Source: Liolophura sinensis
Lineage: Eukaryota > Mollusca > Polyplacophora > Chitonida > Chitonidae
DNA length: 64,000 nt
NCBI RefSeq assembly: GCF_032854445.1
Contig: NC_088307.1
Span: forward strand, 18,860,017-18,924,016
Reading direction: 5' to 3'
Shown: one piece after another, positions 24,596-64,000 of the stretch
Layout of the letters: each line of letters starts with the position of its first letter
Position numbering within the stretch: the first letter of the stretch is position 1
Notes under the pieces: generated by a model
What the model saw: the letters and a program-made list of their open reading frames with translations, nothing else
Database searches by the model: none
What the model was told of the DNA's origin: nothing
Position numbers and translations under genes: made by a program

Positions 24596-24692
24596 GTGAG
24601 TTTAGCAATTCTGCTAACAGTTTGTGCCATTGGTTCAATTATTGCACTCTCAGTCTGAGAAAAAGGCGCAAAATGTTGCAGTTGATAGTGAC

Positions 24693-26385: not shown

Positions 26386-26524
26386 GAGACGAGTCCCACA
26401 GTGTATGTTGTCTGTATCATGTATGCACACCACATTGGTGGAAGACAAACTGTCCACAATGCATGTTTGTGGACTATGGAAACTGACAACACAAGTTTCA
26501 CTAGCCGCTTGTCACTAAGGCCTC

Positions 26525-27244: not shown

Positions 27245-27430
27245 TGCTTTGCTGAGTTTGAGTGTCCGTCTCAAAGTCAGGAGACCTGGGATCAAACTTG
27301 GGTTGGGTCACGCCAAAAACATTATAATGATACTTGTAGCTGCCTCGCTTGGCACAAAGCACTAAGGGTCAGAGCAAGGAAACAGGACTTGCCATGCCAC
27401 AGGATTCAGTCCATAAACACACTCATAATG
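27245..27430 (+). mobile_element. SINE family 2 relative, copy B
   Basis: Counterpart of 6085-6300. Confidence 0.7.
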
Positions 27431-34300: not shown

Positions 34301-37300
34301 AGTACATCTAATAGCAGAAACTGGAGGAAACCTGGCAAAACCTGGCAGAAACCAGACAGAACCTGGCAGAGACCACAGTGGGCCTTCTTTCATAAAACTT
34401 CGTACTGGTAATCATATTTCTGGTATGACAACTTTTTTTCGATAAAAGATGTGGTCTAGGTGACAGCGCCACAAGGCAACATCATTTATGGGAAAAGTTA
34501 CAAAAAAATGACATTCGAAGTTTTGTGAAAGTAGTCCCAGAGGAAAACTAACAGAACATTTGACAGATTGAAGAAAACCAAATTACCTCACCAAGCACCT
34601 AACAAATCTCCTGATGTAGGCATCAGTCTTTGGCAATATTGATTTTTAGTTCAACATAATTTTTAGTTTAAAATGAAATTCCTGTTACATGTAACAGTGA
34701 ATTACATGTACTTTGATTTCCGGTTTTAATACATTTTACAAGAAAACAACACAAACAAAACAGATGCTTAGTGGGTTAGCATTTTGTGCAGCAGTTATTT
34801 GATAGACAAAAAAGAACTTCAAGGGGTTATTAAGGAATCAGATATCATTTCATTTCGCACATCAATCTTTTTTTTGTAGAAATTATTCTTCTTTTCCTTA
34901 CCATGTTATGTTGCACAAGGTATCGTATTGTCTCCCTAACTCCAGACGATATCAAGTTAGATGTGTACGCCAAAAAAATTGTGCAATTCGTCAGTTCTCT
35001 TTTGCACGGATTCATGTTGATTTCTGGTCGCTTATCTTCAGGGACTGGTTGGAATTTGGTATAAATCTGTATTAAAGAAGGGAAAAAAGATAAGAAATAA
35101 ACATAATTAAAATACTGTAAACCTTAATTTTTCCTCACCACAAGTAAATCTGTTTTTGAACAACAAACCAACTTATGACCATCCTATTACCCTTATTCCT
35201 CAACCTTTTGTCACATGAAGGAGCAACTTTCAGTGCACTTTATGAATGTTTTTAATTTGATATTGGAGACAAAACTTACTTTGGATGAATTGGCCTATTT
35301 CAGGGCTTCACAAACATATAATTTTATAAGTCTACATAGAAAAATGCCCTCAGAATTTGCTAGAATAAACACCTTGCGAACTTGCCAAAAAGGTTGAACA
35401 ATTAGGGCATGGTTCTATACTCTTATGTTCTCTTTAACAGAGGTATTAACAAAGAAACAAGCAAAAATTTGCAATAGCTGCCATATTGCACAAAAAGTCG
35501 ACCGTGTCAGGTTTGTGTCAGCTTGCACAAAGGTCTTACCAATCAACCGACAGATAGACAGTATGACTTACACAGCTGTTTGCTGACCTTAGCTAAAAAA
35601 AGGTCAAAGGTCACATGTGTCTGTGATCACCTTTTCCAGCCAACCTTTGTAACCTATAATTCTTTAGTATGACCTTCAAAAACAATCAAATGAACTACCC
35701 TAATTTGCATATGAAACTTTCAGTGCAACTTATGCACATTTCTAATTTGACTTTGCAGACAAAACTACACTGGTTGGATTGACCCAGTTTCAAGGCTTCA
35801 CAAAAGTATACATTTTTTGGGTCTACACAGAATAATGCCTTCGTAGTATGCATGAATAAACTCCTTGCAAACATGCGAAAAGGTTGAAGAATTACAGTAC
35901 ATTTTTCTGTTTAGTTATGCTCAAGGTTTTTTAAAGGAGAACCCCTACGGCTTTATTTTCACACTAAATGTTATTTATGCTAAGTTAGCTTGAAAAGCGC
36001 ATTTAAAAAATATTATATTGACTAGTTTCATAGGATGTTCTGCCTGTTTTGTCAACAGCAGAGCCCTGGCCAGGTGACACCCCATGAATCCCCGCCGGGA
36101 TTGTGTATCGAAAAGCCCTGCAATGCATAGCCAAATCCATGCACTAGGCCTACCCACAGTATGCTTTTCCAGAAGCTATTGTGCGACTTAATCTACAGTC
36201 ACCCCTTACATGCACAGCTCTTATTCAGCACCCTGAAAATAATACAAGTAAAACAATTTTACAACAAATATTTTGAAGCATAGGCTAACGGAGTTGTATT
36301 AGATCCGGGAAAAGCCTGTACGGCTTCGAGGCTGGGCGATACAATGGCCGATTCTTCGCTCACATATACACCACGCATATGACAGAAATGCGCTCCCATC
36401 TGGTTTCTCTGAATTTCACATTCGGACATTTCACCGAATTATGGTTGTACCTGTGGGGAATTTGGCATGCTTTCACAATTAACAGAGTGTAAATTTTTAC
36501 AGCCAAATCGAACAACGCTGGCTGCAACACAAGGATCCATGCAGTCAGGCCAGCCGATTGCGAGTTGCACTGATGATAACAGTCTGTCACTCAACACCGG
36601 TGAAACTAACAACTGTGTTTTAAAAAAGTATCACTGGCAAAAATAAATAAGGCTTGAATTATATTGAATGGAAACAACAACTGGTATCACACGGAAATGT
36701 CTGGGTTCAAATGGTGGGCTTTTGGGTCTGGTTTCCCATTATGGGCTTCAAGGTACGGCATGCTGTGGCGTTTAACGAGCGCATAGCGGTCTGTAGGCAA
36801 TGTGTGAACTAAGCAAAGGGCAAAGGCTATAGGCCGCTCCCTACAGTTCCTGTCACAGCCTGCGGCTTCAAGCAAGCAAGTAGCCAGACAACTTCTGCAT
36901 CCTGGGAGTGAAAATCGGGGACATCTCTTTCGTTTGGTTTTTTGGGGGTATTATAATGCTCGTCCTTCGGCCTTATATTTTAGTACGCATGACTGAATGA
37001 GCAAGTCGCATACGAATATGATTGTCCCCCTTAATCAAAGAGCGTTTTTGACGAGATCTTGCCCATATTTTCTAAATCGATGCCATTTTTAGGCCGTGTA
37101 TGTAACTTTACAGTACCCTGAGTTGTGTTACTGCAGTTGCAAAGCCACACTTGGGCAGGGAATAATCTTGAAATCAGTTGTAAAAGTATAGCGATTGTCT
37201 TCTGTGGTCTCTGTTGTACACAGAGAAGCCTCACATGCATGCAGGGAATGTACCGCTGGGACGTCACAAGGTCAACAGTGGCTCTGTCGTATTGGAGTAA

Positions 37301-38456
37301 ATTTTCTGATGTTTGATGACCAAATTCTGCTGTTTTTCTTCCGTTTTCGACATTTTGAACAAGCGGACTGGATTCAGGGCTAAACCACCAACCTTTGGCA
37401 AGTAACTGACAAACTTTTCCAATAGACTTGCACACCATGTTGGTGGGAGACAACTGGTCTTCAACAAACGTAAGATTGCTCAAACAGCCCATCTAGCACC
37501 ACCTACAGGCCTTACTGTCTCAAAGATCCCTGGACAAAATTTGTAAGCCATTGAAACTATGTTTCAGGCCTGTATACATAAAAAAATGGGCCGTACTTTG
37601 AAGCTGCATTGCTCCATTATCCTTTGTTCAAACCCTTTCAAACTTTAGACATTCAAATGGCATGATTTTGTTAATATACTGACCAATTTTCAAAGTCATA
37701 GCTTGAGTAGTCTGTACACAGGATTAAAATGAAAACATAGCCTCAAAAACGCACGTTCCGGTTACCCACATTGCATCACCTGTCAGGTGTCATGAGTAGA
37801 GCATGCGCTGCACCTGTGTGACATGCGTCAATCAAGTGTCCTCTGGAAAAATTGTCTGGCTTTAGTGTCAGAGAAACCCTTCTGACAGACAGGCACAAGT
37901 TTTGCTGAATCAAGATGGTTTTCTCTGCAGCAGACAAGGAATTGATCACCTTTTCAAGTAAAACAAGGTAGAACATCATTTTGAAATGTCCGGAACATGT
38001 GTTTTTGACTCTATTCTGATTTTGGCCCCATGAACATTAAACTTAAAGGATGAAATTGAAATTTAGTCCGTACACTTAAGACATAATGGCTTTTGAGTGT
38101 GTAAATTTTCAGGAGCTGACGTAAGAGGGTTTCGGAGATATTGAGTGTCAAAGTACAGCCCATTTTTTTATGCCCACCCGATGTATTGCTTCATTTTGTT
38201 ATCTGAAGAATGAATTACATTTCGCTCACAACCATTTACATCAAAGTCCTACCATTTTGTTGATTTCCTCCACCGCCCGACCAAAATTTGTCGCCTGGAA
38301 TCCCGTAGTAGTGTATGACTTGAGCAACTCGTGGAAATCCAGCCCTTTGTTGAAATCGTACCCCTGGACTTTGATTGCATCTTCTGCCATCTGCTGGCTC
38401 TCTACCAAGACTGCTGCAGCAGCCACCTGAGGGATGCCACTTTGTGACGAGTCCAT
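28349..38456 (-). CDS. DHPS: Deoxyhypusine synthase, copy B (frame broken at exon 4)
   Basis: Second copy of the DHPS gene in the duplicated block. Exons are 38253-38456, 34902-35066, 33881-34099, 32678-32763, 32119-32224, 30445-30548, 29321-29446 and 28349-28459. All are the same length as in copy A except exon 4, which is 86 bp instead of 87 because one G is missing at the acceptor (cag|GAATG instead of cag|GGAATG). Read literally this shifts the frame for everything downstream, including the KHH and SWGKI active-site motifs. A few substitutions are seen elsewhere, for example EGK to EDK in exon 2. Given the 200-N gap between copies, this is probably the other haplotype, so the lesion may be a heterozygous null allele or a sequencing error. 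Confidence 0.88.
28609..28771 (+). mobile_element. SINE family 1 in DHPS intron 7, copy B
   Basis: Same insertion as 7494-7656, with the same duplication at 28597-28608 and 28772-28783, so it is shared by both copies. Confidence 0.92.
28926..29168. mobile_element. MITE-like element in DHPS intron 7, copy B
   Basis: Counterpart of 7811-8052. Confidence 0.72.
29685..30482 (-). repeat. Exon-6/donor minisatellite, copy B
   Basis: About 20 units of the same 40-bp repeat, ending in exon 6 at 30445-30548. It is roughly 13 units shorter than in copy A. Confidence 0.96.
30774..30970. mobile_element. Copy B-specific insertion in DHPS intron 5
   Basis: About 197 bp absent from copy A at the matching point near 10173. 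It is bounded by a 5-bp direct repeat cacaa at 30769-30773 and 30966-30970. The family is not recognised; it could be a small non-autonomous element. Confidence 0.6.
32678..32763 (-). pseudogene. DHPS: DHPS copy B exon 4 with 1-bp deletion
   Basis: Compared with 11980-12066 this exon lacks one G of the GGG at the acceptor. The normal frame ([13 protein letters not shown]) is present but only reached in the wrong phase from exon 3. Confidence 0.85.
32815..33665. repeat. 52-bp minisatellite in DHPS intron 3, copy B
   Basis: About 16 units of the same repeat as 12120-13125. Confidence 0.96.
37240..37902. other. Copy B-specific segment in DHPS intron 1
   Basis: About 660 bp between tcacatgc and gctgaatc that copy A lacks at about 16730-16738. 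It contains a fragment of a dispersed repeat (aaccaccaacctttggcaag) also seen inverted near 55430. It could be an insertion in B or a deletion in A; no clean target-site duplication is seen. Confidence 0.7.
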
Positions 38457-38622
38457 GGCCGACAAGTCTGAAGAACAGAGGGGTGTTTCTCCGCTTATTT
38501 TATTGTTTGATTTGGGTTTTAAGTCAGCTGTGCTTAAGAATATCTCGCTATACTAACTGAGAAAATCTGGAAAATTACAAAAGTATGGCCGTTTTTACAA
38601 AAAGCTTTTTTTTTATTTGGGC

Positions 38623-38653
<31 letters not shown>

Positions 38654-39118
38654 TCTACTTCCATTTCTACTTAAGAGTTTTCGACCTGTACGTAAGGTTT
38701 TGGAAAGGGGATAACAAACACTATTATCATATATGTACTAATTTTTGTCGAAAGACAAATAAAAATAAAGCCAAGAAAACACAATTTGTTAACTGCAAGT
38801 AATTTATGCGATTACTGCCGTACATAATGCAGTTTACGCATAACTTTTCCAGCTGTCAACTCCAATTTGAAGGCAGAGAACTATAGTGGTAAGTTGTAAA
38901 GACTAGGTTACGCTGTTTATGTTATGCTTTCCGCATGACTCCTTTCATCAGTTAATTCATGCTTCCAAGTTCCCCGAATGAGCCTGAGTGGACAAAGACT
39001 GCAAGCAGGAGAGACCATTTTCCAATACTGTGCACGTGACAAAAGTATGTGACACACAAGCGCATATGCATTTAACCCTTACCACATTCGTCTTTCTCAA
39101 ACATTTTCACATTCAAAT

Positions 39119-39384
39119 TTATTTATTTATTTGATTGGTGTTTTACGCCCTACTCAAGAATATTTCACTTATATGACCGCAGCCAGCATTATGGTGGGGT
39201 TAAACCGGGCAGAGCCGGGGGAAAACCCACGACCATCCACAGATTGCTGCCAGACCTTCCCACTTATGGTCAGAGAGGAAGCAAGCATGAGCTGGACTTG
39301 AACTCACAGCGACCGCATTGGTGAGAGGCTTCTGGGTCTTTACGCTGCCTTAGCGCACTAACCAAATGAGCCACGCAGGTCCCC
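39119..39384 (-). mobile_element. SINE family 1, full length, copy B
   Basis: Same insertion as 17950-18216 with the duplication at 39106-39118 and 39385-39397. Confidence 0.94.
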
Positions 39385-39604
39385 TTCACATTCAAATGGT
39401 TTAGTGGTAAAGACAACATCGGGCAACTGTATGGACCCAAAGTGCTGTCTGAGAACTGTCTGATGGAAGTTTGAATCCAATTATATTCACGGGAACCACA
39501 AAGGTAACACAATTAGATGTATACAATCCACTCATGACTGTACATGCAAGTGACATAGTACAATACATAGTATGAAAAAAATGCATTTAAGCTGAATCAC
39601 CATT

Positions 39605-39712
39605 TCATTTATTTATTTGATTGGTGTTTTACGTCGTATTGAAGAATATTTCACTCTTCCGACAGCGGCCAGCATTACTGAGAGAGAAAACCCAGCAGAA
39701 CCTGAGATTAAT
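39605..39712 (-). mobile_element. SINE family 1, truncated, copy B
   Basis: Counterpart of 21183-21295. Confidence 0.82.
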
Positions 39713-40230
39713 ATTTCAGGAGTCTCACAAGCTCATGCAGGTTTATGCGAGATAAGGTGAAAAAAAAATAAATCGCATAATAACCTGGCTAAAACATATG
39801 AGTTTACGGAAGCTGCTAATGCCATTGAACTGATCAAGATGTTTAGGGCATTGTAAAGATTATTTGTGCCATAAGGTAGAGTGACATCAATAAGCCCAAT
39901 CCATTATACGAGTCTAACAAATTCACCCAGATACAGGCAAAACAAGGTGGGGGGGTTCTCGCAAAGTAACATAGATAAAAGGCATGATTTAATTGTAGTT
40001 GCCAGATAGCAAATACACCTGTCTGTCAACTCAACACTGCAGTTTGCACCTGACATAAAATCACCTCTTTTAGCCGCTGTAGTTTGCAAGAGCCATCCCC
40101 CTGTTTCACCTAAATCTGCGTGAGCACCCACAACCCCGAAACGCTGCCTGGGGATGTTCATGCGAAGAACCCCCATAACAATGAACATCTGAAAAGTGGG
40201 TCAGCGACCATAAAAAGGTATCAATCACAT

Positions 40231-40703
40231 TAGCCCCGAAAGGCTCCAACACCTTTTCTTACACTGGCCTAGCGTAGTTGGAGTCTTGACGCTTACAATG
40301 TGAATTTCATACTTACTGACAGTCCAGGCTGATTATCTTTGTCATAGAAAAAGTCTTGCGCAAATAAAAGACATCAGTCTAAAGACCTGCTTTCTGCACC
40401 CACCACATCGCACCATAAAGGCTTCTATGGTATATACTCCTCTGCAACTGCGGCCATGCTGAGGAGCTACGTGCATGTCCTGCTTCATAGTGGAGCAGTG
40501 GGAAGATGGCAGCATACAGTGGAAGCCTTCATGGCTGTTATAAATCTATTCTAAATTGAGTAAGGGCGTGCATGTATGGCGGTTGTGCAGTGGGTGCGGA
40601 AAACACATCTTTAGGTTGGTGCCTTTTATTTGTGCGAGACTTCTTCTAGACTCCAACGACACTAGGCCAGTATAAGAAAAGGAGCTGGAGTCTTTTGGGG
40701 CTA
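40231..40703. mobile_element. Foldback element, copy B
   Basis: Counterpart of 21805-22277, also about 473 bp. Confidence 0.85.
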
Positions 40704-42842
40704 GAATCTTAAATTAACTTAAACCTCTTTTTGCAAATCAAATATCTCTACCATTCTTTTTGTTAACCAATGACCTGACGATTCCAATGACCTGCAGAGC
40801 AGCAGGTAAATAGCAACCTAGTCCTTACAACTCCCCTGCGGCGTCCATAACGTCAACATAATGTCATTAACAGCTAAGAAAGTGTCAAGTTTCAGTCTTG
40901 CTCTAAACCTCAAGGACTCACGTGGTGCTCAGATATCGTCACTGTGTACTCACACTTTGAGATCTTGAAGAGGTCGTACGTATAGTCAACTAATGACAAC
41001 AATGAAAATATTGTTCACTTAAGTTCAACTTGTTCTGTGATTGCACAGGCATGGAAAACACAAATCGTCGTTGCACAACACCAATTAAATGTCAATCTTG
41101 CACGTGTTTGGTAGTAGCGAGTATGTACACTGAATTTGATTTAGTAAACAATCGTGGATTCCGACATATTTTACCCCGAAAATCAAACACCCCAAGAGTT
41201 GAATGACGTGGCTTTGTGAAACCGAAATTTGTTTTCGGACGAGGACCGAATTGATAATTCATTGCAAAACATTGGTAAATTAAACCCTCAGTTAGGTTAA
41301 CCTTGAATAACTATATTTGTGATTTTATTTATGTCTTTACTTGATTTGGTGTTTTTGGAGTTTTTTTTTGTCTGAAGCAAATATAGCAAGGAGTGCATGG
41401 CTACTGTTAGGTAGGCCGATAATATGAAATGTAAAGAAATATCAAGTGGAGTCTTACATTTTATAAAGCATGCAAGAAATAGCCTATTCTTTGGTGTTGA
41501 TTTCTTCAACAATGCTCTTTCGATGTTTCTAAAGACAGATTATCACTTCTTAATGGCCGAGATTGACAACAGAGGCATTTCTGGTACTTATAGACTCAGG
41601 ATCGATATATTCGGGACAATTCGGAACTATATTCGTGTTATATATTACAACCGCAAACGTTTACCGAACAACTACTTGGCCCTCATGCCGATACCCTAAG
41701 TGATATTTGGATATGCATTTGTATGCCCCTACATGTACTTATAATATATTCTCCGAAAATTTTGCTTTTGTCATTGATTACTGTCTTTCATTTTGCAGAG
41801 AATCACCTACATGTAGGCCTATATGTTGTTTACTATTACTGTTTTAAAGTTTTGCCGAGATTCTAGAAATGGTCATGCGTGTGTGTGCGTGTGTATAAGG
41901 TGCAGTCAGGACTCTGTAAGGGTTGTCATGGTCGGCGTTGAGCACATAATGGCCTGCATGACTAAAAGTGGTCTGCACGGAGGAAAATCGGCCTATCATG
42001 ATTTGGAGAACAGACTCGTACGTGTTGTTGAACACAAAATCAAGTTTCCTAAAAGATTCACTAATACAATAGCATTATCTCGGAGAAGACTTCTGCAAGT
42101 GGAACTTTGGGAATCCTATTTGGCCCTAATTAATGGCAGTTATTCGATCTTCATCACACAGAACAAATTTTTATAGACCTAAGTCATGAAAGAACTTTCA
42201 AGAATAAAAGAGTTTTCAAGTATAATTTCAAATTGAGAGGAAAAAAAAAAGAATGCTTCAGAGACAATTTATATCTCGAGATTTGGATTAAGAAGCATGG
42301 GTTGATACCATAACGTAGTACAGGTGGGGTAGTATTATTGGTGAAACAAGGATATTAGAGGAAACTTTCGTGCTTTCGTGCCTCGCAATTGTTCATTTTT
42401 CTCTTAGACATATAATGTGATACAATAAAAAAACATCTACAGCATTTTCAAAACAGCCTTGATGAGCCGAAAAATAATACAGATGGCTTTTTTCACCGAT
42501 AGATCGATGGTTATATACGTTGTATATTATTAACTAGGGTTATATTTCAGTGGGATGTAATCGGTGTTTGTAGTAAAGTAGTTTCAGTCTACAACCGTAA
42601 AAAAGCTTGGGTCCACTTCCGCATTTGCGCTCTCCGTTTAGATTGCTTCTCAGGCCATGAATTAAAAATGGTATTGTTGCGACAGTGGGTGATTTCTGTC
42701 AGATTTGACTGTGATTTTCCGCGGATGAATACGTAAAACAGCATCTTTTTCATCAGTTGGTGATAATTTCCACGTTACGTCAAAGGTGCGTGGGTGACAT
42801 TTTGGTTAGAGAATAAGCCGCAACCAGCAAACAAAATTCAAC
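40704..42842. other. Intergenic DNA and presumed SCAI promoter, copy B
   Basis: Counterpart of 22278-24497. Distance from DHPS start to SCAI start is about 4.4 kb here and 7.2 kb in copy A. No other gene recognised. Confidence 0.5.
42776..42782 (+). promoter_or_regulatory. CRE-like motif upstream of SCAI
   Basis: tacgtca, matching an ATF/CREB-type site, 61 bp upstream of the SCAI ATG. It is present in copy A as well. A single short motif is weak evidence. Confidence 0.25.
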
Positions 42843-42940
42843 ATGTCGTCCGACGTAGGTATGGATGAGAACGAAAGGAAAATAGTGAACGAATTCTGTC
42901 ATCTACTGGAGAAATCAAAGCAGCTTTTCAACGGCCTCAG
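42843..42940 (+). CDS. SCAI: SCAI exon 1
   Basis: 32 codons plus two bases, from the ATG at 42843 to donor CTCAG|gtgagt. It encodes the acidic start and the conserved LLEKSKQLFNGLR segment. Confidence 0.94.
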
Positions 42941-45900
42941 GTGAGTTTAGCAATTCTGCTAACAGTTTGTGCCATTGGTTCAATTATTGCACTCTCAGTC
43001 TGAGAAAAAGGCGCAAAATGTTGCAGTTGATAGTGACGCACGTCCAGCCTAGGCCTTAGGCGACGTGTGTTGACAGCTGACAGAACCCTGGCATTGTCAT
43101 CTCGGGCGGAAATAACAAAGTGTCTGACATTTAATTGTTAAGCCAAGACAGTCAGCTAGCAGATCTGTTTCTCATATAGAAGGCATAAAGTCTCTAATTT
43201 TTAAGCTGTTGCTTCTACACAATGAAATAGTAGGCATCAGATGTAGATAGTAAAATGATAATGTAGTATAGTCCTAATGCTAAGTCTGCACTACTTCCCT
43301 AGCCAGTTCATCACTCAGCTTGTAGAAAAGTCAAACTCTGCATTGATAAACTGTCTTTCAACATTAATGGAGCGAAATTTTTCATTCCAACATGTTCGCT
43401 ATCGTTGAAAGTTGAAAATTAACTTAAAATATTTTAACACCAGCCTTGTGGACCTTTTACCTTTTTTCTGATAAATGATTTTGCTCTCTGCTTATGACGG
43501 TTTAATGTCCATCAACTAATCCAACTGACTGGGTTTGGAAGAAAAAGAGAGCGTGAAGAGTAAAGTACCATTTCCGGGCTGCGGAGAAAGCCCACTGGTT
43601 GTCTATGAAGCTGTAGATTTCATACTTGCGTTCTTTTTTCATGCACATGGATGGAGATCAGCGATATAGGTCGTATTTATATTATACTAGTTATAAGGCA
43701 AATATGCTTGTGTTAAAAACAAACCAAACCAAAACATTATAAATCAACTTGCTTTCATATTTGTATTTTGTTGAGTACAGTGTAAGACATAATTTTCTGA
43801 AACATTGAAATATTTATGGATTTCTTTCTGTTACAGAGATCTGCCTCAGTATGGACATAAGCAGTGGCAGGCATATTTCGGACGGACTTTCGATGTGTAC
43901 ACAAAGCTTTGGAAGTTTCAGCAACAGCACAGGTGCCATGTTTTGTTTTTTTGTGTTGTAGTTTACTAGGTTTAAAGTTGAAGAAGCTGTAATGCCTTAA
44001 ATGTTCAAAGTACTAGCTCGCTGAGACTATCAGGCCCTTGAGGTCACAGGTTCAAATCCAGCTCTCGCTGTTTTAGCTGCGACTTTAAGTCAGCAGGTTT
44101 TTCAGATACTTGACGAAGGTAAGTGGTTAACCCTGGAAGCTCAGTTTTCTCCAACCGCAAGCGTCGAGTCCAGTGGGGTTTATCAACACAACACAGATTC
44201 ATGAGTACAACACCACTCCATAATGTACAAAAAACTCGCGAACTGGCCAAGGACTTTAATATCAAATACAAATAACCCCGAGTAGAAATACCTATATAAA
44301 GTTGATGTTGTATAAAAATATGAAAACTGGCTTGGAGAAAGGTTTTGTTGATCGCCATGTTCTCATCAGGCAGTGCACTGTGTATCCAATGCTTGACTAT
44401 TCCTGACTTGCTTTTAGTTTTTGCCTTTGTACATGTATTTTGCAGAATTGAAGAATCCACAAATGTGTCAACTTTTGAGAAAACACAGATAGCCGTTGAC
44501 TTCCAGTTGCCTTAAGCATTTTAAGTTACAATGTACCGTTCTTTGCTACTGTACAATACAAAAAATTACGGGTCTTCAGGATCCAATATATCGCCAAGTA
44601 TGGCATCTGATTAATCTGATTGGACCTCAATGCTACGCGGTTCAAACCAAACTTTTGCAGATGTTTTATACTACTGCTTAGACAGTGTGATAGTTTCATG
44701 TCGAATACTGTACAGTCAATGACCGTATGGTATGGCGCACTCACGAATCCTTACGTTAGTGTCCAGAAGCTATACGGTACCAAACATTTGCTGTGCAGTA
44801 CTTTATATAAAATATTATTTATAACAGTGTGTTACTGCGTATGGATCTTTACACTGCTTAGTACATGTAAGTTCTGCGTGTTAAGCGCACTGCACTATGC
44901 AGTGAAAGTTTTCATATGTAGTACCCAATGATCCAAGCACAAGTAATGTTTGAAATCAAGACTGCCATATCAAGTACAAAAGGTACGTCATGTAATATTA
45001 AATTTAGAATACAGCCTGACCATCCTGACGCAGAGTTGGTAATACTGTTCGCCTTAAAGTTGAAAATGATGTCTGCTTCCATTGTCAGATGAACAGCTCT
45101 GGGTGGTCTGGTACTGTACCTCATATCTGTGCTACTGTAAATCTTCAACATTTTGGCATGTTTGCAAGGTGTTTATTCAAGCACATTCTGAAGGCATTTT
45201 TCTATGTAGACTGATAAAATTACTCTTTTGGTGAAGACCTGAAATAGGCCAACCCAACCAATGTAGTTTTGTTAAATCCAATTAAAAATGTTCATGTGTG
45301 GCACTAAATGTTGCTCTTTCATGTGTAAAAAGAGCAATTAGGGTATTTATGTGTATAAGAGCATGGCTATATCTTATGTAAAAAAAAACCCTGAAGTTTC
45401 TGATCTCAAACTTTGAGGTGACATTGTCACTGTACAGCATTAGATGCAACTCAAATGATGCTTTCTGAGAGCTTTTAAGTCTGTGAATGAAAGAAATTTG
45501 TGTAAACTTTTTATTGGTAAACTATCATGTTTTTGATCATTTTATGTAGTATCATTAGAACAGCTTAATTAGTAGGGCCCAACGGTTTGGGAGCCCAAAC
45601 CCTCTCCAGAACTGACAAAAGGGCCCAGGACGTGGCCTAAAAGTACATAAATACACCGAACACATTTTGCAGTTAGTATACAATCTCCATGGAGAAAATC
45701 ATCAGGAAACGTTTCTTTGCTCACATTATATGTTGAGATCCATGCTCCATATTTCCTGACTTTTTCATTTTCATTGTCTCATCTTTTTTGGTTTTTTTTT
45801 TGTTAGCCAGTGTACATTTACACCTGCAGAGTGAAAGAGTTGATATGTGCTTAGACAGTAAATGTACATGTGTTGACACTGGAAATGTACGTTTTTACAC

Positions 45901-48900
45901 AGGAAATGTACATGTACATGTATTTACATAGGAAATGAACATGTACATGTATTTACACAGGAAATGTACATGTACATGTGTTTACACAGGAAAGGTACAT
46001 GTACATGTATTTACACAGGAAATGTACATGTACATGTACATGTATTTACACAGGAAATGTACATGTACATGTGTTTACACAGGAAAGGTACATGTGTTTA
46101 CACAAGAAATGTACTTGTACATGTGTTTACATAGGAAATGTACATGTGTTTACACAAGAAATGTACTTGTACATGTGTTTACATAGGAAATGTACATGTG
46201 TTTACACAAGAAATGTACATGTGCTTACACAGGAAATGTTTATGTACATGTGTTAACACAGGAAATGTGCATGTGTTTGTACATACAGTTTTAATGCTGA
46301 TTAATGACTAAAGTTGCAGCTCTGTGTTTTAAACATAGCTAAAATAAAGTTTCAAGTTATTTAAGTTAATCTTACAAGGCACATGCTTTGTACGAAAAGT
46401 GTCAAAGGCACTGTGCAAGAACTTGAACTGTATTTGACTTTTATCCATGGCTCAGGTTTCTTATATGCTTCATTCTGGGAGCTCTATTGCTTTGAAAAAG
46501 GTATTTTGAGGTTTGTTGTTTTTTTAGCAAGGTAGGATGATATTCTGCTGGTCAAGTATACATATAACACCACAGGTAATATTTCACGACATTTATGTGC
46601 ATCTTAAAATGTTTTTCGTTGGGCGAATTTTTAGGGCAAAAACACGTTCTCTATAATGATTTAGCGTGTTATGATGGAGTATATACAGACAAAGCGTGAG
46701 GGTGTTGTTCAATGGTCATTATCCCAAACAATCCTAATTTCTCAAACCGCTGAAGCTGGATCATATTATGTAAAACAAAGGACTACAACATGGAGAGCGA
46801 AACTAGAACATCAGCATCAGCTTGATCAATAGTCCCTAGTAACCCGGTGAAATCTGGCCTCTTGCCAGTTTACATCAGTTCCCAACTGCTCATTTAAATG
46901 CTAAAAAGGTGGCAACTTTATTAATACAGGCCTTCTAGCACCATGGCTTCAGCAGAATTGCATACAAAAACATGAATCCAATGATTGCGGTATTTATTGC
47001 AGTTTATTAGACATCACCGGTCTAAAAATGACTCAAAATACTGTGTTGTCATCACATTTAATAAATATTTAAAGTGGTTTTACTTATGATTTTTGGCCTA
47101 TTAAAGTTTATCAGCAGTAATCCATTCAAATTTTAGCTGTAGCCCATGTGTTAAAAGGTTGAGGAATTAGGGTAGATTGAATTGTAAATTTGAAAAAGTT
47201 ATAATGCGACATTTAGGAAATTTATTCCGGATTTTAAATGATGACTTGTGCACAGATGAGACTGAAGTTTTGTGAAAGGTAATTATTTGGGCTACAGCTA
47301 AAATTTGATTGGATAAGTGTGCATAAATTGCACTGAAAGTTGCTATTTTATTTGTGAAAAGGTTGGGGAAATAGGATAGACTACATGTTTGTCCATTTTG
47401 TAGAGGCCCACAGAGCACATATAGTTTTACTACAATTACGCGTACATAGACAGTGCCTGTCTGTAGTGTAACTTGCACACACACTGTATGCACATTGTTA
47501 AATTCTGTGAGGCTGGGCGATTGTCTGACACCACATTTGATTAATTTCGGCTTTTAGTGCCACAACATTCATTGTCTTGTCACTACATTTGACATTGTCA
47601 CGGCATCAAGGTAGTTGTTGCCATGGCAACGCAGCATGCCTTCCTTCGTATGTATACATACACTAGTATATACTGTAGGTGTATGTACCCGAGCTTTTAA
47701 CTGGGATATTATGATGCAATACAGATCGGCAAGCGCCTCTTTAATATGGATTTTATGGTAATCATGTTAGATTGGAAATGTTGGAATATTCCAGGCCTTT
47801 AAAAGATTTGCATATATATCATAAAGCTGTTTTCATATATGGGATAGATAATGAATGTTAAACAGGTTCTGAAATGAAAACCAGAATAACTGATCCAATG
47901 CATTTATTACTTATTTGAAATTTGATATCAGTAGTAGTAGTAAAGGTTATATTAGATTGGGACTAGCAGGTTATTTCAGGCCATCCCTAAAATGAATTCG
48001 TTTGGTATAACTCAACCAAAAAAAAAATAATAAAAAAATAAAAAAGAGAAAAATGGTAGGGCTGTTTTTTTTATTTAAAGTTTAGGTTATTAAAAATGAT
48101 AGAAATTTTAAAGAATTAACATTGAAAGAAAAAGTAGAAAAATCCAGAGTAGGGCCCTTTTTTGAGGGTTTAATTGACAGCTTATCCCAGTCAGCATTTT
48201 TTTTTTTTAAATCATGGCCTTAGACGAGAACTGGTACGTTACTCTTGATTCTAAATGTAATGTAAATCCTTATGCAACGTAAATCCTTATGCAACGTAAA
48301 TCCTTATGCAATGTAAATCCTTATGCAACGTAATTACAATAATCTTATCAAATAAATAATACATATGTAAATGGTATTTACATATTCCAGGCATAAAAGA
48401 TGCTTTTCAGGACAGTTCTGTTGAAAGTTTCTAGTTTAAGATAGGAAGCATACTCCAAGTATACATGGTGGAGCAAAAGTCTGGACCCATAGGCAGTTGT
48501 GATTTATGCTAACAAACCAAGAACATTACAAGCATTAAAAGATAACATCACACACGAAATTGAAACCATAAGAGGGAATAACTCTATACTGGTTGATTCT
48601 GGGACCAATCCTATTCCCATTATATATAAATGACATATCGAAAGTAACAGACGTTCTGAATATCATAATCTTTGCGGACGATACTAGCACAACTTATTCC
48701 TGTGAAAATGTCGATGAGGCTATCACGACTTCATCTTACAAGCTAGGAAAGCTGAACACTTGGTTCTGTGCAAACCACCTTTCACTAAATGGTAACAAAA
48801 CAAAGTATATGTTAATCTCGCCCACGAGTTGACATAGACCACAAATTACTGTTCCCTTGACGGTTCTGGGACAGATGTTAACGAGTCAGGGAGTTCAAAT

Positions 48901-57900: not shown

Positions 57901-60900
57901 TTTACCACCTTTCTTAACCCCACTAACCTTTATTCTGTCTAACCCACACCTGCCTACTAAAAAGAAAAGATTCCAGGAGCTCCAGAGATACCAATGACAT
58001 TTCCCGGGACTATTTTCTGGGGCGAAGTGACTCGGTTCTACCCAGGTTTGTGATTTGACAGAAGCTTTACTAACAGTAATCATCATCAAACATCTGTCTG
58101 CAGGTCTTTTGCATTTTGGCTTACAACATGTTTTTATTGTGCATTTGTCAGTCAGTTTTTCCATACCATTGTCCTATGTGTGTGGTTATCATACGTGTAC
58201 AACACCTTTGTGAAAATGACTGGCCCCGATAGCACAGTTGATAAAGTGTCCGCTTCGGGAGCGGTAGATCCAGGGTCAATCCTTGTTTGAGTCACACCTA
58301 AAACTTTAAAAAGAGGTAGTTGTAACTTCCTCGTTCACCATGAAGGGGATAGCGCAGTGACAGGTTGACCCGTATCAGTATAATGGCTCAGGCGGGGCGG
58401 CTTACTTGCCTTCGGTGTGTCGTCTCAGTGAAGCAGCACTAGATAGAAGAGCGGTGGAAATCCGTCCTGCAGCAAGGAGGCACATTACATGCACTTTAAT
58501 GATTCCTTCGTCATGTGACTGAATAATTGTTAAGAACGACGTTAAACCCCAAGCACTCACTCGCACTCTGTATGAAAATGGACCCTGTTCCCTTTATGAT
58601 TCATGCATATGCATTGGTTGCTAACTTTGCTTTGGTTCAGTCAGTTTCTGTTTGTTTGCTTACGGTATGTATAGACTATATGGCTTATAGCATCTTCATT
58701 TAATAGTTAGGTTTTAGCTTGAATGAGTGAAAATTATTTGATTCTGGAGGAGTGGTCTAAAGTGTTGCCTCTGGAAACACTTTAGTCCAGAAGAAAAGTG
58801 ATGAAAATTTTAATATAGGCCTTTCTGGATTTATATGAGGAACTTTTATGGTGCTGTGAAAGATAGGGTGGTTTCCCCCTGGACTTTACCAGGTTTCCCC
58901 ATAACTGTTACAAGTTTCATCTGACTTTTACTGGTTTCCTGTGTGGACCGAATCTAGCAACAGTTAATTGAGCGAAATATGATAATGGTAAAAATGATGA
59001 GTTTTATGTTTGAAGGTAAAAACACGGAATGACAGACTCCTAATCTTCTAGACTTACCTACATATATTCTTCATTATGATGAAAAAAAAGCAGCGTGTGT
59101 TCTGATAAATAAACATGTAAAGGATTGAAAATAAATTCCTTTCTTGCACCAAAATAACCATATTGTGATAGATATTTTTGCTTTTACTGTATTAATTGTG
59201 CTGTAATTTTAACTCCTCCAGCTCATGCTGGCTTCCTCTCCGGTTGTAATTGGGAACGTCTGCCAGCAACCTGCAGATGGTCGTGGGTTTCCCCCTGGGC
59301 TTTGCTTAGTTTCCTCCCACCATAATGCTGGCCGCCGTCGTATAAGTGAAATATTCTTGAGTACGGCGTAAAACACCAATCAAATAAATAAATAAATAAA
59401 TAAACTCCTGCTACCATACATGGCTCATCAGAGTTCAGGTAAATGTTTTGATTAGACAATCTGTTACAATGAATCAGAGTCTTTCCGCTGTGTTGTGACA
59501 GACCAGACCTGATGGTGAAGAAACTACGCTATTACGCCCGCTTCATTGTGGTGTGCTTGTTACTGAAGAAAATGAAACTAGTCAGAGACTTAGTGAGGGT
59601 AAGTTTTTAGTAACTCTTTGAAAGAAGGTATAGTTGTCCCATTATATACATTGATTCATATAAAGCTGTGTACAAACAGTGCTGTTTGTCATATTGACTG
59701 TTAAATTCAACTAGTCAAAGGAAAATCTGCATTACCTGAGAATTGGGCCTTAGGAAATCTTCTTCAGCTCAGAAATGGGCCTTAAAAAATCTGTTTGACC
59801 TTAGAATTGGGCCCTAGGAAATCTGTTAGACCTGAGAATTGGGACATAGCAAATCTGCTTTACCTGAGAATTGGGCCTTAGGATTCTGCTTTACCTGAGT
59901 ATTGGGCTCGAAGAAATGTGTTTACCTGAGAATTGGGCCTTAGGAATTCTACTTTACCTAAGAATTGGGCCTTGGGAAATCTGATTCATCTGAGAATTGG
60001 GCCTTAGGAAATCTGTTTTACCTGAGAATTGGGCCTTAGGAAATCTGTTTTGCTTGAGGAAAGCTTACCTCTTATGTTGGTTTGTTGCTGTTGCACATAT
60101 CAGGAATTGGCCAAACAGATTGATGATTACACAACAACATATGAGCCAGAGGACCAAATGGAATGGAATCTAGTACTGGCGGAGATCAAGGCTTTTATTG
60201 AGGCAAGTGAACAAATTGACAACTACATTATTATTGATTTCTTCTTGTAAGAATCAATGATTAGAACTGCCAGCATGTTTTATGATTTGTTTTCTACATA
60301 ATATATCATATTTTTTTGTATTGCCATAGCCAGATTCTACACCCTCTTTACATCTTGTAAAATTTTTTGCTCGTTATTCTGTGTGGCAGAATAAAATAGA
60401 TTTGAGAGGGAAAATACTGACACTGCACCTGTAACATTGGGATAAATTGATTCGTCATTTTGATTCTGATGTCACTTTGATTCTGATGTCATTTTGATTC
60501 TTTTGTACCATTTCTGTCGACAGGCTGATGGGATGCTGAGTGTGGTAGACGTGGACTCTTCCCCAGTGGTGTTGTCTTATCGTCTGACGCCCTTGAATAC
60601 CCCACCCCTGGAGAAGGGCACACCCATGTACTTAACCCTGCAGGAGATCCTCATTGTGGGAAACTGTCACGAACAGGTATATACCTTGCTGTGTGTATCT
60701 CAGACCCAATAGCCAATCGTACAACCTCTTTGGGTACAAACTTAAAAGAGCTGACAACACCTGACTAAATGTATACATGAATATGCATTGATAAAGTTTA
60801 AAGAGCATAACGTTTGGTCTTTGTGATGCTACATTGGGGAAATTCAGTTATTGTATCAAAATCAACATTGAGAACATGTAAAGCATTGCCATTTTATCAG

Positions 60901-63423
60901 TTTTGGTCAGTCGGGCACAAGTTATCTCTACAACCCGAGAACACAGCTGTTTTCGCTTTTGTTCCGCGAACCCGTTTTGCCTTTTAACCCATAAATGTTT
61001 GGGGTATGAGTGGCAATATTATATTGTTACATTTACAACACTAATCATGTCTATATGTGTATGTGTCAGGTAAAGCTCAGTGAACTGACACTAATCCTGT
61101 GTATTTGTGTGTATTTTTCCCAGTTGAAGCTCAGTGAACTGACACTAATTCTGTGTATTCGTGTGTATTTTTGTCAGATGAAGTTTAATGAGCTGACACC
61201 AATCTTATTTATTTTTGTGTATTTTTCCCAGTTGAAATTCAGTGAGCTAATACTAGCCCTGTATATTTGTGTGTATTTTTGCAAGGTGAAGTTCATTGAG
61301 TTGATACTAATCTTGTGTATGTGTGTGTATTTCTGTCTGGTGAAGTTCAGTGAGCTGACACCAATCCTGTTTGTTTTTGTGTATTTTTTCCAGTTGAAAT
61401 TCAGTGAACTGACACTAACCTAGTGTATTTGTATTTTCCCCAGGTGAAGCTCACTGAGCTGACGCTAATCTTGTGTATTTGTGTTTATTTTCCTCAGGTG
61501 AAGTTCAGCAAGCTGACACTAATCTTGTGTATTTGTATTTTCCCAGGTGAAGTTCAGTGAACTGACACTAATCCTGTGTATTTGTATTTTTTCCAGGTGA
61601 AGTTCAGCCAGGTGACACGTATGTTGTGTACTTGTATTTTCCCAGGTGAAGTTCAGTGAGCTGACAATAAGGTTGTGTATTTGTGTTTTCCCAGGTGAAG
61701 TTCAGTGAGCTGACACTAATCTTGTGTATTTTTGTTTTCCCCAGGTGAAGTTCAGTGAACTGACACTAATGTTGTGTATTTGTATTTTCCCCAGGTGAAG
61801 TTCAGTGAGCTGACATTAATGTTGTGTATTTGTATTTTCCCCAGGTGAAGTTCAGTGAGCTGACACTAATCCTGTGTATTTGTATTTTCCCAGGTGAAGT
61901 TCAGTGAGCTGACACAAATCTTGTGTATTTGTATTTTCCCCAGGTGAAGTTCAGCAAACTGACACTAATGTTGTGTATTTGTGTTTTCCCAGGTGAAGTT
62001 CAGTGAGCTGACACAAAGGTTGTGTATTTGTATTTTCCTCAGGTGAAGTTCAGCAAACTGACACTAATGGTGTGTATTTGTGTTTTCCCAGGTGAAGTTC
62101 AGCCAACTGACACTAATCTTGTGTATTTGTGTTTAATTCCCCAGGTGAAGTTCAGTGAACTGACACTAATGTTGTGTATTTGTATTTTCCCCAGGTGAAG
62201 TTCAGTGAGCTGACATTAATGTTGTGTATTTGTATTTTCCCCAGGTGAAGTTCAGTGAGCTGACATTAATGTTGTGTATTTGTATTTTCCCCAGGTGAAG
62301 TTCAGTGAGCTGACACTAATGTTGTGTATTTGTATTTTCCCCAGGTGAAGTTCAGTGAGCTGACATTAATGTTGTGTATTTGTATTTTCCCCAGGTGAAG
62401 TTCAGCCAACTGACACTAATCTTGTGTATTTGTGTTTAATTCCCCAGGTGAAGTTCAGTGAGCTGACACTAATCCTGTGTATTTGTATTTTCCCAGGTGA
62501 AGTTCAGTGAGCTGACACTAATGTTGTGTATTTGTATTTTCCCCAGGTGAAGTTCAGCAAACTGATACTAATGTTGTGTATTTGTGTTTTCCCAGGTGAA
62601 GTTCAGTGAGCTGACACAAATCTTGTGTATTTGTATTTTCCCCAGGTGAAGTTCAGCCAACTGACACTAATCTTGTGTATTTGTGTTTAATTCCCCAGGT
62701 GAAGTTCAGTGAGCTGACACTAATGTTGTGTATTTGTATTTTCCCAGGTGAAGTTCAGTGAGCTGACATAAAGGTTGTGTATTTGTATTTTCCTCAGGTG
62801 AAGTTCAGTGAACTGACACTAATCTTGTGTATTTGTGTTTTCCCAGGTGAAGTTCAGTGAACTGACACTAATGGTGTGTATTTGTATTTTCCCAGGTGAA
62901 GTTCAGTGAGCTGACAATAATGTTGTGTATTTGTGTTTTCCCAGGTGAAGTTCAGTGAGCTGACACTAATCTTGTGTAAATGGTGTGTATTTGTATTTTC
63001 CCAGGTGAAGTTCAGTGAGCTGACAATAATGTTGTGTATTTGTGTTTTCCCAGGTGAAGTTCAGTGAGCTGACAATAATGTTGTGTATTTGTATTTTCCC
63101 AGGTGAAGTTCAGTGAGCTGACAATAATGTTGTGTATTTGTGTTTTCCCAGGTGAAGTTCAGTGAGCTGACACTAATCTTGTGTATTTGTGTTTTCCCAG
63201 GTGAAGTTCAGTGAGCTGACACTAATCTTGTGTATTTGTATTTTCCTCAGGTGAAGTTCAGTGAGCTGACACTAATCTTGTGTATTTGTATTTTCCTCAG
63301 GTGAAGTTCAGTGAGCTGACCCTGGACATGTTCCGCATGTTACAGACGTTAGAGAGAGAACCACAGGAGGATTTGTCCACACAGATCTACGACACATCCC
63401 CAGCCCCGGGCAAACAACCTTTT
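42843..63423 (+). CDS. SCAI: Suppressor of cancer cell invasion, 5' part (8 coding exons, continues past window)
   Basis: In mammals SCAI is a nuclear protein that represses MRTF/SRF-dependent transcription (for example of beta1-integrin) and acts with 53BP1 in double-strand break repair. Exons found: 42843-42940, 43837-43932, 54382-54468, 56006-56104, 59502-59598, 60104-60202, 60524-60676 and 63301-63423. They join in frame to about 284 residues, roughly the N-terminal half of the ~600-residue family. Strongly conserved stretches include QYGHKQWQAYFGRTFDVYTK, YGLKRWQIGEIASKIGQLYY, HYYLRTSETNYLNE, KKLRYYARFIVVCLLL, and VKFSELTLDMFRML. The four early introns are phase 2 and the later ones phase 0. 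The N terminus is shorter than in human. Intron 2 is about 10.4 kb, intron 6 is GC-AG, and intron 7 is mostly a minisatellite copying its own acceptor. The remaining exons lie beyond 64000. Confidence 0.95.
42941..43836. other. SCAI: SCAI intron 1
   Basis: About 0.9 kb, no repeat or gene recognised. Its first ~96 bp also exist in copy A before the gap. Confidence 0.7.
43837..43932 (+). CDS. SCAI: SCAI exon 2
   Basis: 96 bp, acceptor tctgttacag, donor CACAG|gtgcca. It encodes DLPQYGHKQWQAYFGRTFD and VYTKLWKFQQQH. Confidence 0.95.
44005..44240 (+). mobile_element. Possible SINE-like fragment in SCAI intron 2
   Basis: Has a B-box-like aggttcaaatccagc and a body resembling SINE bodies, but no target-site duplication or tail was found. 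Confidence 0.35.
45110..45360 (-). repeat. Dispersed repeat R1 in SCAI intron 2
   Basis: Reverse-strand match to the repeat at 14597 and 15145 (gcaaggtgtttattcaagca, gaaataggccaacccaacc, aagttgctctttcat-like end). Confidence 0.7.
45865..46275. repeat. Short-unit minisatellite in SCAI intron 2
   Basis: Irregular units of about 18-42 bp built from aggaaatgtacatgtacatg and tgtttacac. The chance frames over it are repeat artefacts. Confidence 0.95.
46276..48459. other. SCAI: Middle of SCAI intron 2
   Basis: Mostly unremarkable AT-rich DNA. R1-like fragments occur at about 47100-47175 and 47280-47370. An 18-bp tandem repeat (aatccttatgcaacgtaa) with about five units lies at 48247-48330. Confidence 0.6.
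48247..48330. repeat. 18-bp tandem repeat in SCAI intron 2
   Basis: About 4-5 units of aatccttatgcaacgtaa. Confidence 0.9.
48464..49918 (+). mobile_element. Mariner-like element remnant interrupted by a retrotransposon
   Basis: Terminal inverted repeats ca(t/g)ggtggagcaaaagtct with ggacccataggca at both ends, flanked by TA on each side (48462-48463, 49919-49920). Between them are only the C-terminal part of a mariner transposase (NKPRTLQALKDNITHEIETI at about 48508-48592, then LRNVQRS and CLEEGGSQFEH after 49778) and an inserted non-LTR element. The 5' two thirds of the transposase are gone. Confidence 0.85.
48593..49777 (+). mobile_element. Non-LTR retrotransposon 3' fragment (reverse transcriptase)
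   Basis: A degenerate reverse-transcriptase C-terminal half: GPILFPLYINDI, then the catalytic FADDT motif, then LNTWFCANHLSLNGNKTKYM. It continues in other frames to a jockey-like end (TGPREWNKLPSYLRNIQSIS near 49390-49450) and an (aaac)n tail at about 49750-49775. It is inserted within mariner transposase sequence and truncated at its 5' end. Confidence 0.87.
49925..50320 (+). repeat. Dispersed repeat R1, two units in SCAI intron 2
   Basis: Plus-strand R1 sequence at 49925-50115 (gagacaaaactatgttggtt, agaataatgccttcagaata) and a second piece at 50220-50320. Confidence 0.72.
50321..51100. other. SCAI: SCAI intron 2, no feature seen
   Basis: AT-rich DNA without recognised genes or repeats. 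Confidence 0.5.
51101..51205 (-). mobile_element. SINE family 1, truncated, in SCAI intron 2
   Basis: Only the 3' end of the family (gattggtgtcttacagcgc, aaggccagcattctggtggg on the plus strand) with an AAATAAAT tail on the minus strand. Confidence 0.8.
51300..51324. repeat. Poly-G run
   Basis: Over 20 consecutive G; similar runs at 51701-51713 (G) and 53506-53526 (C, followed by CCACC repeats to about 53562). Confidence 0.95.
51714..54203. other. SCAI: Right part of SCAI intron 2
   Basis: No gene recognised. It holds an R1 fragment on the minus strand at about 52705-52830 and the C-rich tract at 53506-53562. Confidence 0.55.
54217..54359 (+). mobile_element. SINE family 1 immediately upstream of SCAI exon 3
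   Basis: 5'-truncated copy with an AAAT tail. A 13-bp target-site duplication ataattttgatct lies at 54204-54216 and 54360-54372, so the duplicated bases now form part of the pyrimidine tract of the exon 3 acceptor. Confidence 0.92.
54382..54468 (+). CDS. SCAI: SCAI exon 3
   Basis: 87 bp, acceptor tgtttgcag, donor TTA|gtatgt. It encodes PVLDGKYGLKRWQIG and EIASKIGQLYYHYY. A SINE and its target-site duplication end only 9 bp upstream of the exon. Confidence 0.95.
54606..55068. mobile_element. MITE-like element in SCAI intron 3, split by a SINE
   Basis: Diverged copy of the element at 7811-8052 (taccagatttaactttaa, gcccaaaaataatt, ctaatacatttttgaacag). The SINE at 54795-55021 is inserted in it. 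Its left terminal repeat is poorly kept. Confidence 0.75.
54795..55021 (+). mobile_element. SINE family 1, near full length, nested
   Basis: Includes the tRNA-like head (gattcgtggccgtggaggtt) and the AAAT tail. The 14-bp target-site duplication aataccagtattag lies at 54781-54794 and 55022-55035. Confidence 0.94.
55069..56005. other. SCAI: SCAI intron 3, right part
   Basis: Nothing recognised except a short fragment near 55395-55445 that matches, inverted, a dispersed repeat also seen at 37383-37455. Confidence 0.5.
56006..56104 (+). CDS. SCAI: SCAI exon 4
   Basis: 99 bp, acceptor after a TTG repeat ending tgcag, donor GACAG|gtatgt. It encodes LRTSETNYLNESYSFYAAIR and YYSKAAKDD. Confidence 0.95.
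56105..57029. other. SCAI: SCAI intron 4, left part
   Basis: No gene or repeat recognised. Confidence 0.5.
57030..57300 (-). mobile_element. SINE family 1, full length, in SCAI intron 4
   Basis: Minus-strand copy from a tRNA-like head (ggggccttcgtggccgtagg) to an AAATAAAT tail. Target-site duplication not evident. Confidence 0.88.
57301..58210. other. SCAI: SCAI intron 4, middle
   Basis: No gene recognised; short open frames on both strands lack any known domain. Confidence 0.5.
58217..58560 (+). mobile_element. tRNA-derived SINE family 2, long copy
   Basis: Starts with a tRNA-like head (tggccccgatagcacagttg, cggtagatccagggtcaatc), then a body with attatactgacac-complement and cttgccttcggtgtgtcg blocks, and ends tgttaagaacgacgttaaac. 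Partial relatives lie at 3425-3645, 5400-5795 and 6085-6300. Confidence 0.8.
58561..59210. other. SCAI: SCAI intron 4, right part
   Basis: No gene or recognised repeat. Confidence 0.5.
59218..59402 (+). mobile_element. SINE family 1 in SCAI intron 4
   Basis: 5'-truncated, well preserved, AAAT tail. Short target-site duplication aactcct at 59211-59217 and 59403-59409. Confidence 0.9.
59502..59598 (+). CDS. SCAI: SCAI exon 5
   Basis: 97 bp, acceptor tgtgacag, donor AGG|gtaagt. It encodes PDLMVKKLRYYARFIVVCLL and KKMKLVRDLVR, ending in phase 0. Confidence 0.95.
59715..60062. repeat. ~31-bp minisatellite in SCAI intron 5
   Basis: About 11 units with core acctgagaattgggcctta then ggaaatctg. It ends about 40 bp before exon 6. 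Confidence 0.94.
60104..60202 (+). CDS. SCAI: SCAI exon 6 (GC donor)
   Basis: 33 codons: ELAKQIDDYTTTYEPEDQME, then WNLVLAEIKAFIE. The only donor that keeps the frame and joins to ADGML in exon 7 is GAG|gcaagt, a GC-AG intron with the usual strong AG|GCAAGT context. Confidence 0.92.
60524..60676 (+). CDS. SCAI: SCAI exon 7
   Basis: 51 codons, acceptor ctgtcgacag, donor GAACAG|gtatat. It encodes ADGMLSVVDVD, a variable middle, and LTLQEILIVGNCHEQ. Confidence 0.94.
60677..61059. other. SCAI: SCAI intron 7, left part
   Basis: Unique sequence with no feature seen, ahead of the acceptor array. Confidence 0.6.
61060..63300 (+). repeat. Splice-acceptor minisatellite in SCAI intron 7
   Basis: About 44 tandem units before the true exon 8. 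Each unit is tgtgtatttgtattttcccc-ag|gtgaagttcagtgagctgac or a close variant: a pyrimidine tract, CAG, then the first ~20 bases of exon 8. The first seven units are about 54 bp and more diverged, several with cagttgaa or cagatgaa; later units are 49-53 bp. Most contain CAG|GTGAAG, which looks like an acceptor and a donor at the same point. Confidence 0.97.
63301..63423 (+). CDS. SCAI: SCAI exon 8
   Basis: 41 codons, acceptor ttttcctcag, donor CTTTT|gtaaga. It encodes VKFSELTLDMFRMLQTLERE and a less conserved QEDLSTQIYDTSP stretch. Its first ~20 bases and its acceptor are repeated about 44 times upstream. Confidence 0.93.
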
Positions 63424-64000
63424 GTAAGAAAATAGACTTATCAATGGGTCAACAAATGGCTCATGTTGTCAGATTTTGACAGATGCATGATTTTTGAGAC
63501 ATATTCACCTGGTGCAATGTGATTAACTGTGGTATAATATGCATAGACAGAATGGAATTTTTTGACAAAATTTTCTGGCATGTGTTTTACTGTGTATACC
63601 AAGAGCTAAGAAGCCAAATCGCTTAGAAAATCAAGTTTTAATGTGAAACTGAATCTGCTGTATAAATTCAAATATCTGAAGTCTCTGTTTGTGGCTGCCT
63701 TTTGCCAACATCTCGGGTTTCGTGAAATTGTGAAATTCATCTGTTGGTGTAGGGTAGTACTGCTGTAATAGTCAACATTGATGTTAATACATTCAGCTCT
63801 GTGTTTAGTATCGTAATTCGTCGAACTTTTTGACCAGCTGAGCAGCACATGTTGTTGAAATCCTCAGGGGGAAAGTTGAGGAAACAGGGTCAGGGGATGT
63901 AGGGGAATCTGATCAGATACCTCCTGCCTTTAGATTTATGTGTTCATTTGATTAGTGTTTCTGTTTCAAGAGTTCTGATGTCGCCCTATTGTCAAACTGT
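63424..64000. other. SCAI: SCAI intron 8, 5' part
   Basis: Begins with donor gtaaga. No further exon was recognised before the window ends. Confidence 0.6.

Follow-up and report, generated by a model that had tools for sequence, protein, structure and literature searches.

A tandem array of SCAI intron 7/exon 8 boundary copies in the chiton Liolophura sinensis, probably a tolerated minisatellite

Minisatellites that straddle exon-intron boundaries have been described in lancelets, where such "mirages" occur at Adh3, the globin genes BflGb6 and BflGb9, PGBD5, and troponin C (PMC3087553 and PMC3902484). The mRNA of the affected genes is reported as regular, the copy number of the repeats is unstable, and the arrays have been proposed as a route to intron gain (PMC3087553). 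Here, we analyzed a 64,000-nucleotide stretch of the chiton Liolophura sinensis (hereafter the window; contig NC_088307.1, positions 18,860,017 to 18,924,016 of the forward strand), in which intron 7 of the gene SCAI runs into exon 8 through an array of 44 copies of ~50 bp. Like the mirages, the SCAI array consists of tandem repeats across an exon-intron boundary, many of them with AG/GT, beside the authentic boundary. On the two BflGb6 haplotypes, in contrast, there are 3 and 6 units, each 150-160 bp long; Adh3 mirage units measure 10-72 bp. What further sets the chiton array apart is that both signals are kept in 39/44 copies. We favor the view that it is a minisatellite of the mirage kind, which would have arisen by tandem duplication of the intron 7/exon 8 boundary and, for the most part, is tolerated and not under selection for a role of its own, and we give this reading a probability of roughly two in three.

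Tandem dual-specific AG|GT sites are known from human UBC and VCX3A (PMC10809524). The UBC repeats are coding and are reported as spliced; where a repeat expands together with a dual-specific site, less harm is likely, since splicing can remove the additional copies (PMC10809524). The UBC-type sites and the SCAI array share an AGGT at the pitch of the repeat, which could serve as donor or acceptor, but the SCAI repeats are intronic and mostly out of frame, whereas those of UBC are coding. The direct precedents for the SCAI array are the mirages of lancelets (PMC3087553) and these dual-specific sites in tandem (PMC10809524). Repeats at exon-intron boundaries can also create introns in human duplicated genes (PMC2812944); unlike in intron gain by AGGT duplication, the copies here sit inside an existing intron. 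In the ratchet points and recursive splicing exons (RS-exons) of Drosophila and vertebrates, as in the SCAI array, an acceptor adjoins a donor and a downstream donor defines a cryptic exon (PMC8605326, PMC6224609). The candidate sites in SCAI differ in that there are dozens of them, at a ~50-bp pitch, in a short intron, and derived from a real exon. A short-unit minisatellite in human IFI6 (6-16) multiplies splice donors next to the real one; there it is the donor side that is multiplied, and in SCAI it is the acceptor side.

The first-pass annotation of the window had called the gene SCAI and numbered its exons, and both calls were borne out. The protein joined from the exons matched P0002 ("protein SCAI-like isoform X2 [Liolophura sinensis]", a predicted model) at 98% over its full length, and the spliced match to P0002 gave the same numbering. 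Mapped onto the window plus the adjoining 20 kb, the P0002 model has 15 coding exons and 14 introns, with exon 1 at 42843 and the end of the last exon at 70445 (window coordinates; the latter lies past the window). P0002 joins GNCHEQ|VKFSEL, the same as the junction 60676|63301, and EQVKFSEL stands at the corresponding place in 7/7 SCAI proteins compared (six molluscs and one annelid). The array was read from one haploid assembly. The features concerned are as follows, in window coordinates.

60524..60676, plus strand: SCAI exon 7, ending in CAG, phase 0, from the spliced match to P0002
60677-63300: SCAI intron 7, 2,624 bp
60677..60682, plus strand: intron 7 donor CAG|GTATAT, 5.8 bits
61038..61069, plus strand: presumed original intron end (ACACTAATC...GTGTCAG) at the left array border, from the sequence and the border drawn by Tandem Repeats Finder (TRF)
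61070..61497, plus strand: units 1-8, divergent, 7/8 of them 54 bp long
61498..63300, plus strand: units 9-44, 36 copies, mostly of 49-50 bp, all starting CAG|GTGAAGTTCAG at the boundary
63301..63423, plus strand: SCAI exon 8, 123 nt, 41 codons, starting GTG AAG (Val-Lys)
63424..63429, plus strand: exon 8 donor TTT|GTAAGA, 3.6 bits

TRF placed the array at 61038-63320, with a period of 50, 45.0 copies, and 86% matches. Cutting at the exon-start anchor delimited the units and yielded 45 boundaries, 44 of them internal (61070 to 63251) plus exon 8 itself at 63301, confirming that the exon 8 acceptor is copied in tandem, as had been noted in the first pass. Each unit comprises the first 20 bases of exon 8 (GTGAAGTTCAGTGAGCTGAC) followed by an intron end (ACTAATCTTGTGTATTTGTATTTTCCCAG or similar), and its intronic part is a copy of the final 29-34 bp of intron 7. 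The 44 units measured 50 (17 units), 49 (16), 54 (7), 53 (3), and 60 bp (1), so that the unit size of 49-50 bp given previously applies to 33/44 but not to the 5' end, where the units are mostly of 54 bp. To the left, the array looks as if it runs into the original intron end (ACACTAATC...GTGTCAG); at the join, which reads CTGAC|ACTAAT, the AC is common to both parent sequences. The 5' units of 54 bp lie in an open frame of 137 codons (61010-61420) with an 18-residue repeat.

When the array was aligned with the exon 8 acceptor region, the score was 88, compared with a shuffle mean of 16.7, and 0/500 shuffles scored as high. Five other SCAI acceptors in the window scored 15-23 against the array, and the best of these (56006) was equalled by 10/200 shuffles. 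We consider the likeness in sequence between the array and the exon 8 boundary to be beyond doubt. In the 609-Mb genome, the array sequence turned up at a single place (E ≤ 0.001; the search skips very common words). Identity to unit 44 ranged from 0.72 to 0.88 for units 1-8, which are probably old copies, and from 0.80 to 1.0 for units 9-44; judged by these values, divergent 5' units and closer later ones are the usual pattern of a minisatellite with old edges. There were 32 distinct sequences among the 44 units, and the only exact two-unit block to be repeated was units 14-15 (= 22-23). Within units 9-44, mean identity did not drop with distance over the lags tested (0.88-0.91). The exonic part of the unit is nearly palindromic (AGUUCA/UGAGCU), which would allow pairing between units, and two stretches folded slightly better than shuffles (z -1.96, 3/100 as good; z -1.57, 8/200 as good); this slight RNA folding signal is too weak a basis for further inference.

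We then turn to the splice signals in the copies, which were scored for one gene with a simple matrix based on the human consensus. The acceptor AG is kept at 43/44 internal boundaries (unit 6 reads TG) and the donor GT at 40/44 (lost in units 2, 3, 4, and 7). AGGT, the layout of a recursive site in which the acceptor abuts the donor, is present at 39/44 internal boundaries, and the exact CAG|GTGAAG at 37/44, in units 8-44. The first-pass annotation was right that most units read CAG|GTGAAG; the acceptor-donor pair is incomplete in units 2, 3, 4, 6, and 7. A branch-point-like yTnAy motif lies no more than about 45 nt 5' of the AG in 35/36 of units 9-44 (none in unit 12), and a second AG between -30 and -3 occurs at 4/45 boundaries. 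A pyrimidine tract, too, is present in nearly all units.

The 14 real SCAI acceptors scored 3.8-12.4 bits, and 37 of the 44 internal acceptors reached the upper-median real one (8.6 bits). The acceptor of exon 8 itself, at 11.2 bits, is exceeded by 30/44 internal copies and equalled by 4; the margins range from 0.1 to 2.4 bits, and many are just 0.1 bit. In the other SCAI intron sequence (22.8 kb, sense strand), there were 12 acceptors of at least 9 bits and no AG|GT site of at least 9 bits. Splicing to a copy would rebuild the donor CAG|GTGAAG, which scores 7.5 bits, versus 5.8 for the exon 7 donor and 3.6 for the exon 8 donor (TTT|GTAAGA, third lowest of 14 in SCAI). The proposal that exon definition must favor the last acceptor is weakly founded, given the 3.6 bits of the exon 8 donor and the 30/44 acceptors that outscore the true one.

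Val-Lys can be encoded solely as GTNAAR. A donor-like GT stands at the start of the exon because exon 8 begins with Val-Lys after a phase-0 intron, and faithful copies read CAG|GTGAAG because exon 8 begins GTGAAG. The AG|GT juxtaposition in the copies is thus a by-product of coding and in itself says nothing about recursive use. The resemblance to ratchet points seen in the first pass is thus real as a layout in 39/44 units and built in by the GTG AAG start of the exon. At 2,624 bp, the host intron is not one of the very long introns in which recursive sites typically lie in flies; a broader range is reported in PMC10156609. In the terms of PMC6224609, exon 8 would be an annotated RS-exon candidate.

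What would follow if a copy were accepted can be read from the frames. Read straight to exon 8, an in-frame stop was met from 44/44 internal acceptors, after 7-20 codons in 35/44 and after 27-117 codons in the remaining 9 (units 1-6, 8, 20, and 38); the TGA earlier placed within ~1.5 units describes the 35 and not the 9. Each of the two off frames meets a stop within the first 20 bases of exon 8, and the 49- and 50-bp pitches (33/44 units) shift the frame. The 54-bp 5' units keep the frame and are open across several units, yet they stop further downstream. For recursive splicing to occur, the ratchet point must have a cryptic exon, in whose inclusion competition between donors is one among several factors (PMC8605326). 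Each of units 8-44 has a donor of equal score one unit downstream, and a mixture of outcomes is therefore predicted.

We suggest that tandem duplication of the SCAI intron 7/exon 8 boundary gave the array, and that the normal message would join 60676 to 63301 regardless of how many copies there are. If an internal acceptor were accepted, the rebuilt CAG|GTGAAG might be spliced on to a later acceptor, producing a zero-length exon that leaves no trace. Alternatively, the copy would be read as exon, mostly with a frame shift and with a stop in all 44, and degradation of the RNA would be expected. The array would be mostly tolerated because both outcomes limit the harm of internal acceptance. Low-level internal splicing of the array, possibly recursive, is likely, and recursive splicing proper is possible on the signals present; sequence alone does not separate the array as decoy, as stepwise ladder, or as neutral repeat.

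Several observations weigh against a tolerated minisatellite. The join of exon 7 to 63301 rests on P0002, a predicted model. Among 208 acceptor-to-donor fragments of at most 300 nt within the array, which might be included in the message, 12 have an open frame and a length divisible by three and so escape both stop and frame shift; 10 of these 12 fall among units 1-9. A predicted chiton SCAI truncated by internal acceptance was absent among the 120 of 364 protein matches listed, the closest of which was 90% identical; the result speaks weakly against internal use and is neutral for tolerance. The aligned units also show a boundary invariance in units 9-44 that neutral decay does not obviously explain.

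This invariance covers CAG|GTGAAGTTCAG (CAG and the first 11 exonic columns), which is unchanged in 36/36 of units 9-44, whereas half of the 22 columns that follow (11) are variable; in units 1-8, differences occur at 6/11 of the first exonic columns. The probability of finding no variable column in the splice window from -3 to +6 was p = 0.022 (units 9-44; 36 columns, the pyrimidine tract being excluded owing to its length changes); it was 0.0036 for the first 11 columns, which were chosen after seeing the data, and 0.067 for GTGAAG alone, all three values being limited by the non-independence of columns in a duplicated array. The pattern hints that broken splice sites may have been purged, and it could instead be due to young age or to copying from exon 8. 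It is the strongest lead past what is already known.

A working recursive ladder, by which intron 7 would routinely be removed stepwise through the internal AG|GT units, draws on several of these features. Each unit would serve as a cryptic RS-exon, with the GTGAAG of the next unit as its downstream donor. The RS-exon model calls for such a donor (PMC8605326), and for most units there is one a single unit further downstream. The AG|GT in 39/44 units, a rebuilt donor that outscores the original exon 7 donor, and the unvarying boundary in units 9-44 point the same way. However, the host intron is just 2.6 kb, and the layout is automatic from an exon that starts GTGAAG. In addition, a CAG|GTGAAG donor would stay at exon 8 and outscore the exon 8 donor, predicting the skipping of exon 8 unless it is repressed, as by the exon junction complex (PMC6224609). 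We judge a routinely used ladder unlikely. A variant under selection, in which the ladder cancels itself, would have a copy persist only with a donor after its acceptor, because a donor-less acceptor is a dead end that allows no re-splicing. Internal units would serve as exons of zero length while transcription is under way, and copy number would set how many steps there are and thereby the delay in SCAI splicing. This variant strikes us as distinctly unlikely.

The array might also act as a regulatory decoy, with substantial internal acceptor use lowering SCAI through nonsense-mediated decay in a dose set by copy number. That 30/44 internal acceptors outscore the true one, that a stop is reached from 44/44 copies, and that unit lengths of 49/50 bp (33/44) shift the frame are all consistent with such poison splicing. 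The off-frame stops, however, stem from the first 20 bases of exon 8 itself and not from tuning, and shuffles of bases 7-20 gave stops in both off frames in 22% of cases; we find a decoy very doubtful. An erroneous copy number in the assembly is scarcely credible: the array is repetitive and HiFi coverage was only 14x, but the mean HiFi read of 8.3 kb is several array lengths (PMC11068029), and 32 distinct sequences in 44 units make collapse or false expansion unlikely.

Returning to the array itself, it is a real and well-formed boundary minisatellite, with many copies and in a phylum that is new among the cases found. We found no comparable boundary array in a mollusc in one library of open-licence papers, nor a longer boundary array described there, the copy numbers of Adh3 and troponin C being outside the comparison. 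The array extends boundary minisatellites from lancelets to a mollusc, with far more copies than in the globin cases. Its 44 similar acceptor-donor pairs, at a near-fixed pitch ahead of one real exon, form a natural series. Models of how a 3' splice site is chosen, whether first-come, exon-definition, or recursive, differ in what they predict for this series, and their predictions can be counted. Since 32 different sequences occur among the 44 units, reads that contain array sequence could often be assigned to the copy used. Public transcriptomes exist for five tissues of L. japonica (PMC11068029), and public tissue RNA-seq makes the recursive-splicing question answerable at once. The choice of the right splice site can be tested here in a natural and unusually clean setting.

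To place the array in its genome, we surveyed 294 kb, comprising the window, an adjacent 30 kb, and 20 stretches of 10 kb drawn at random from its contig, for arrays with a period of at least 20 and at least 4 copies; the halves of a duplication in the window were counted separately. Strong AG|GT sites occurred in the SCAI array only (1/40 arrays). Seven other arrays had strong acceptor-like AGs on either strand (11 in L006 9258-10000 and 1-4 in the other six), and 13 others had at least 5 donor-like sites on either strand, donor-like sites alone being common. There was no evidence of a widespread habit of forming boundary arrays in these 294 kb, a small sample from one contig. The L006 array is a 53-bp minisatellite that continues from 9258-10000 into L025 (1 to about 610). 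Most of its units have an acceptor-like motif, TTTTTCAG, with no GT (L006), and no exon was recognized where the array ends on the right.

Two further arrays in SCAI were rejected as boundary copies. The 32-bp minisatellite at 59723-60058, ~45 bp 5' of exon 6, scored 16, and 199/500 shuffles were as good; for a 29-bp array in intron 2 compared with the exon 2 region, 131/500 shuffles were as good. Elsewhere in the gene, intron 6 (60203-60523) has a GC donor (GAG|GCAAGT), and intron 2 contains an open frame at 48572-48829 that resembles a partial reverse transcriptase, judging by the motif ...FADDT.... The window also holds a tandem duplication of about 18-21 kb (3975-24692 and 24893-43037) with long blocks that are 92-98% identical. 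SCAI exon 1 is present twice in this duplication (24498-24596 and 42843-42941), and its minisatellites differ in length between the two halves.

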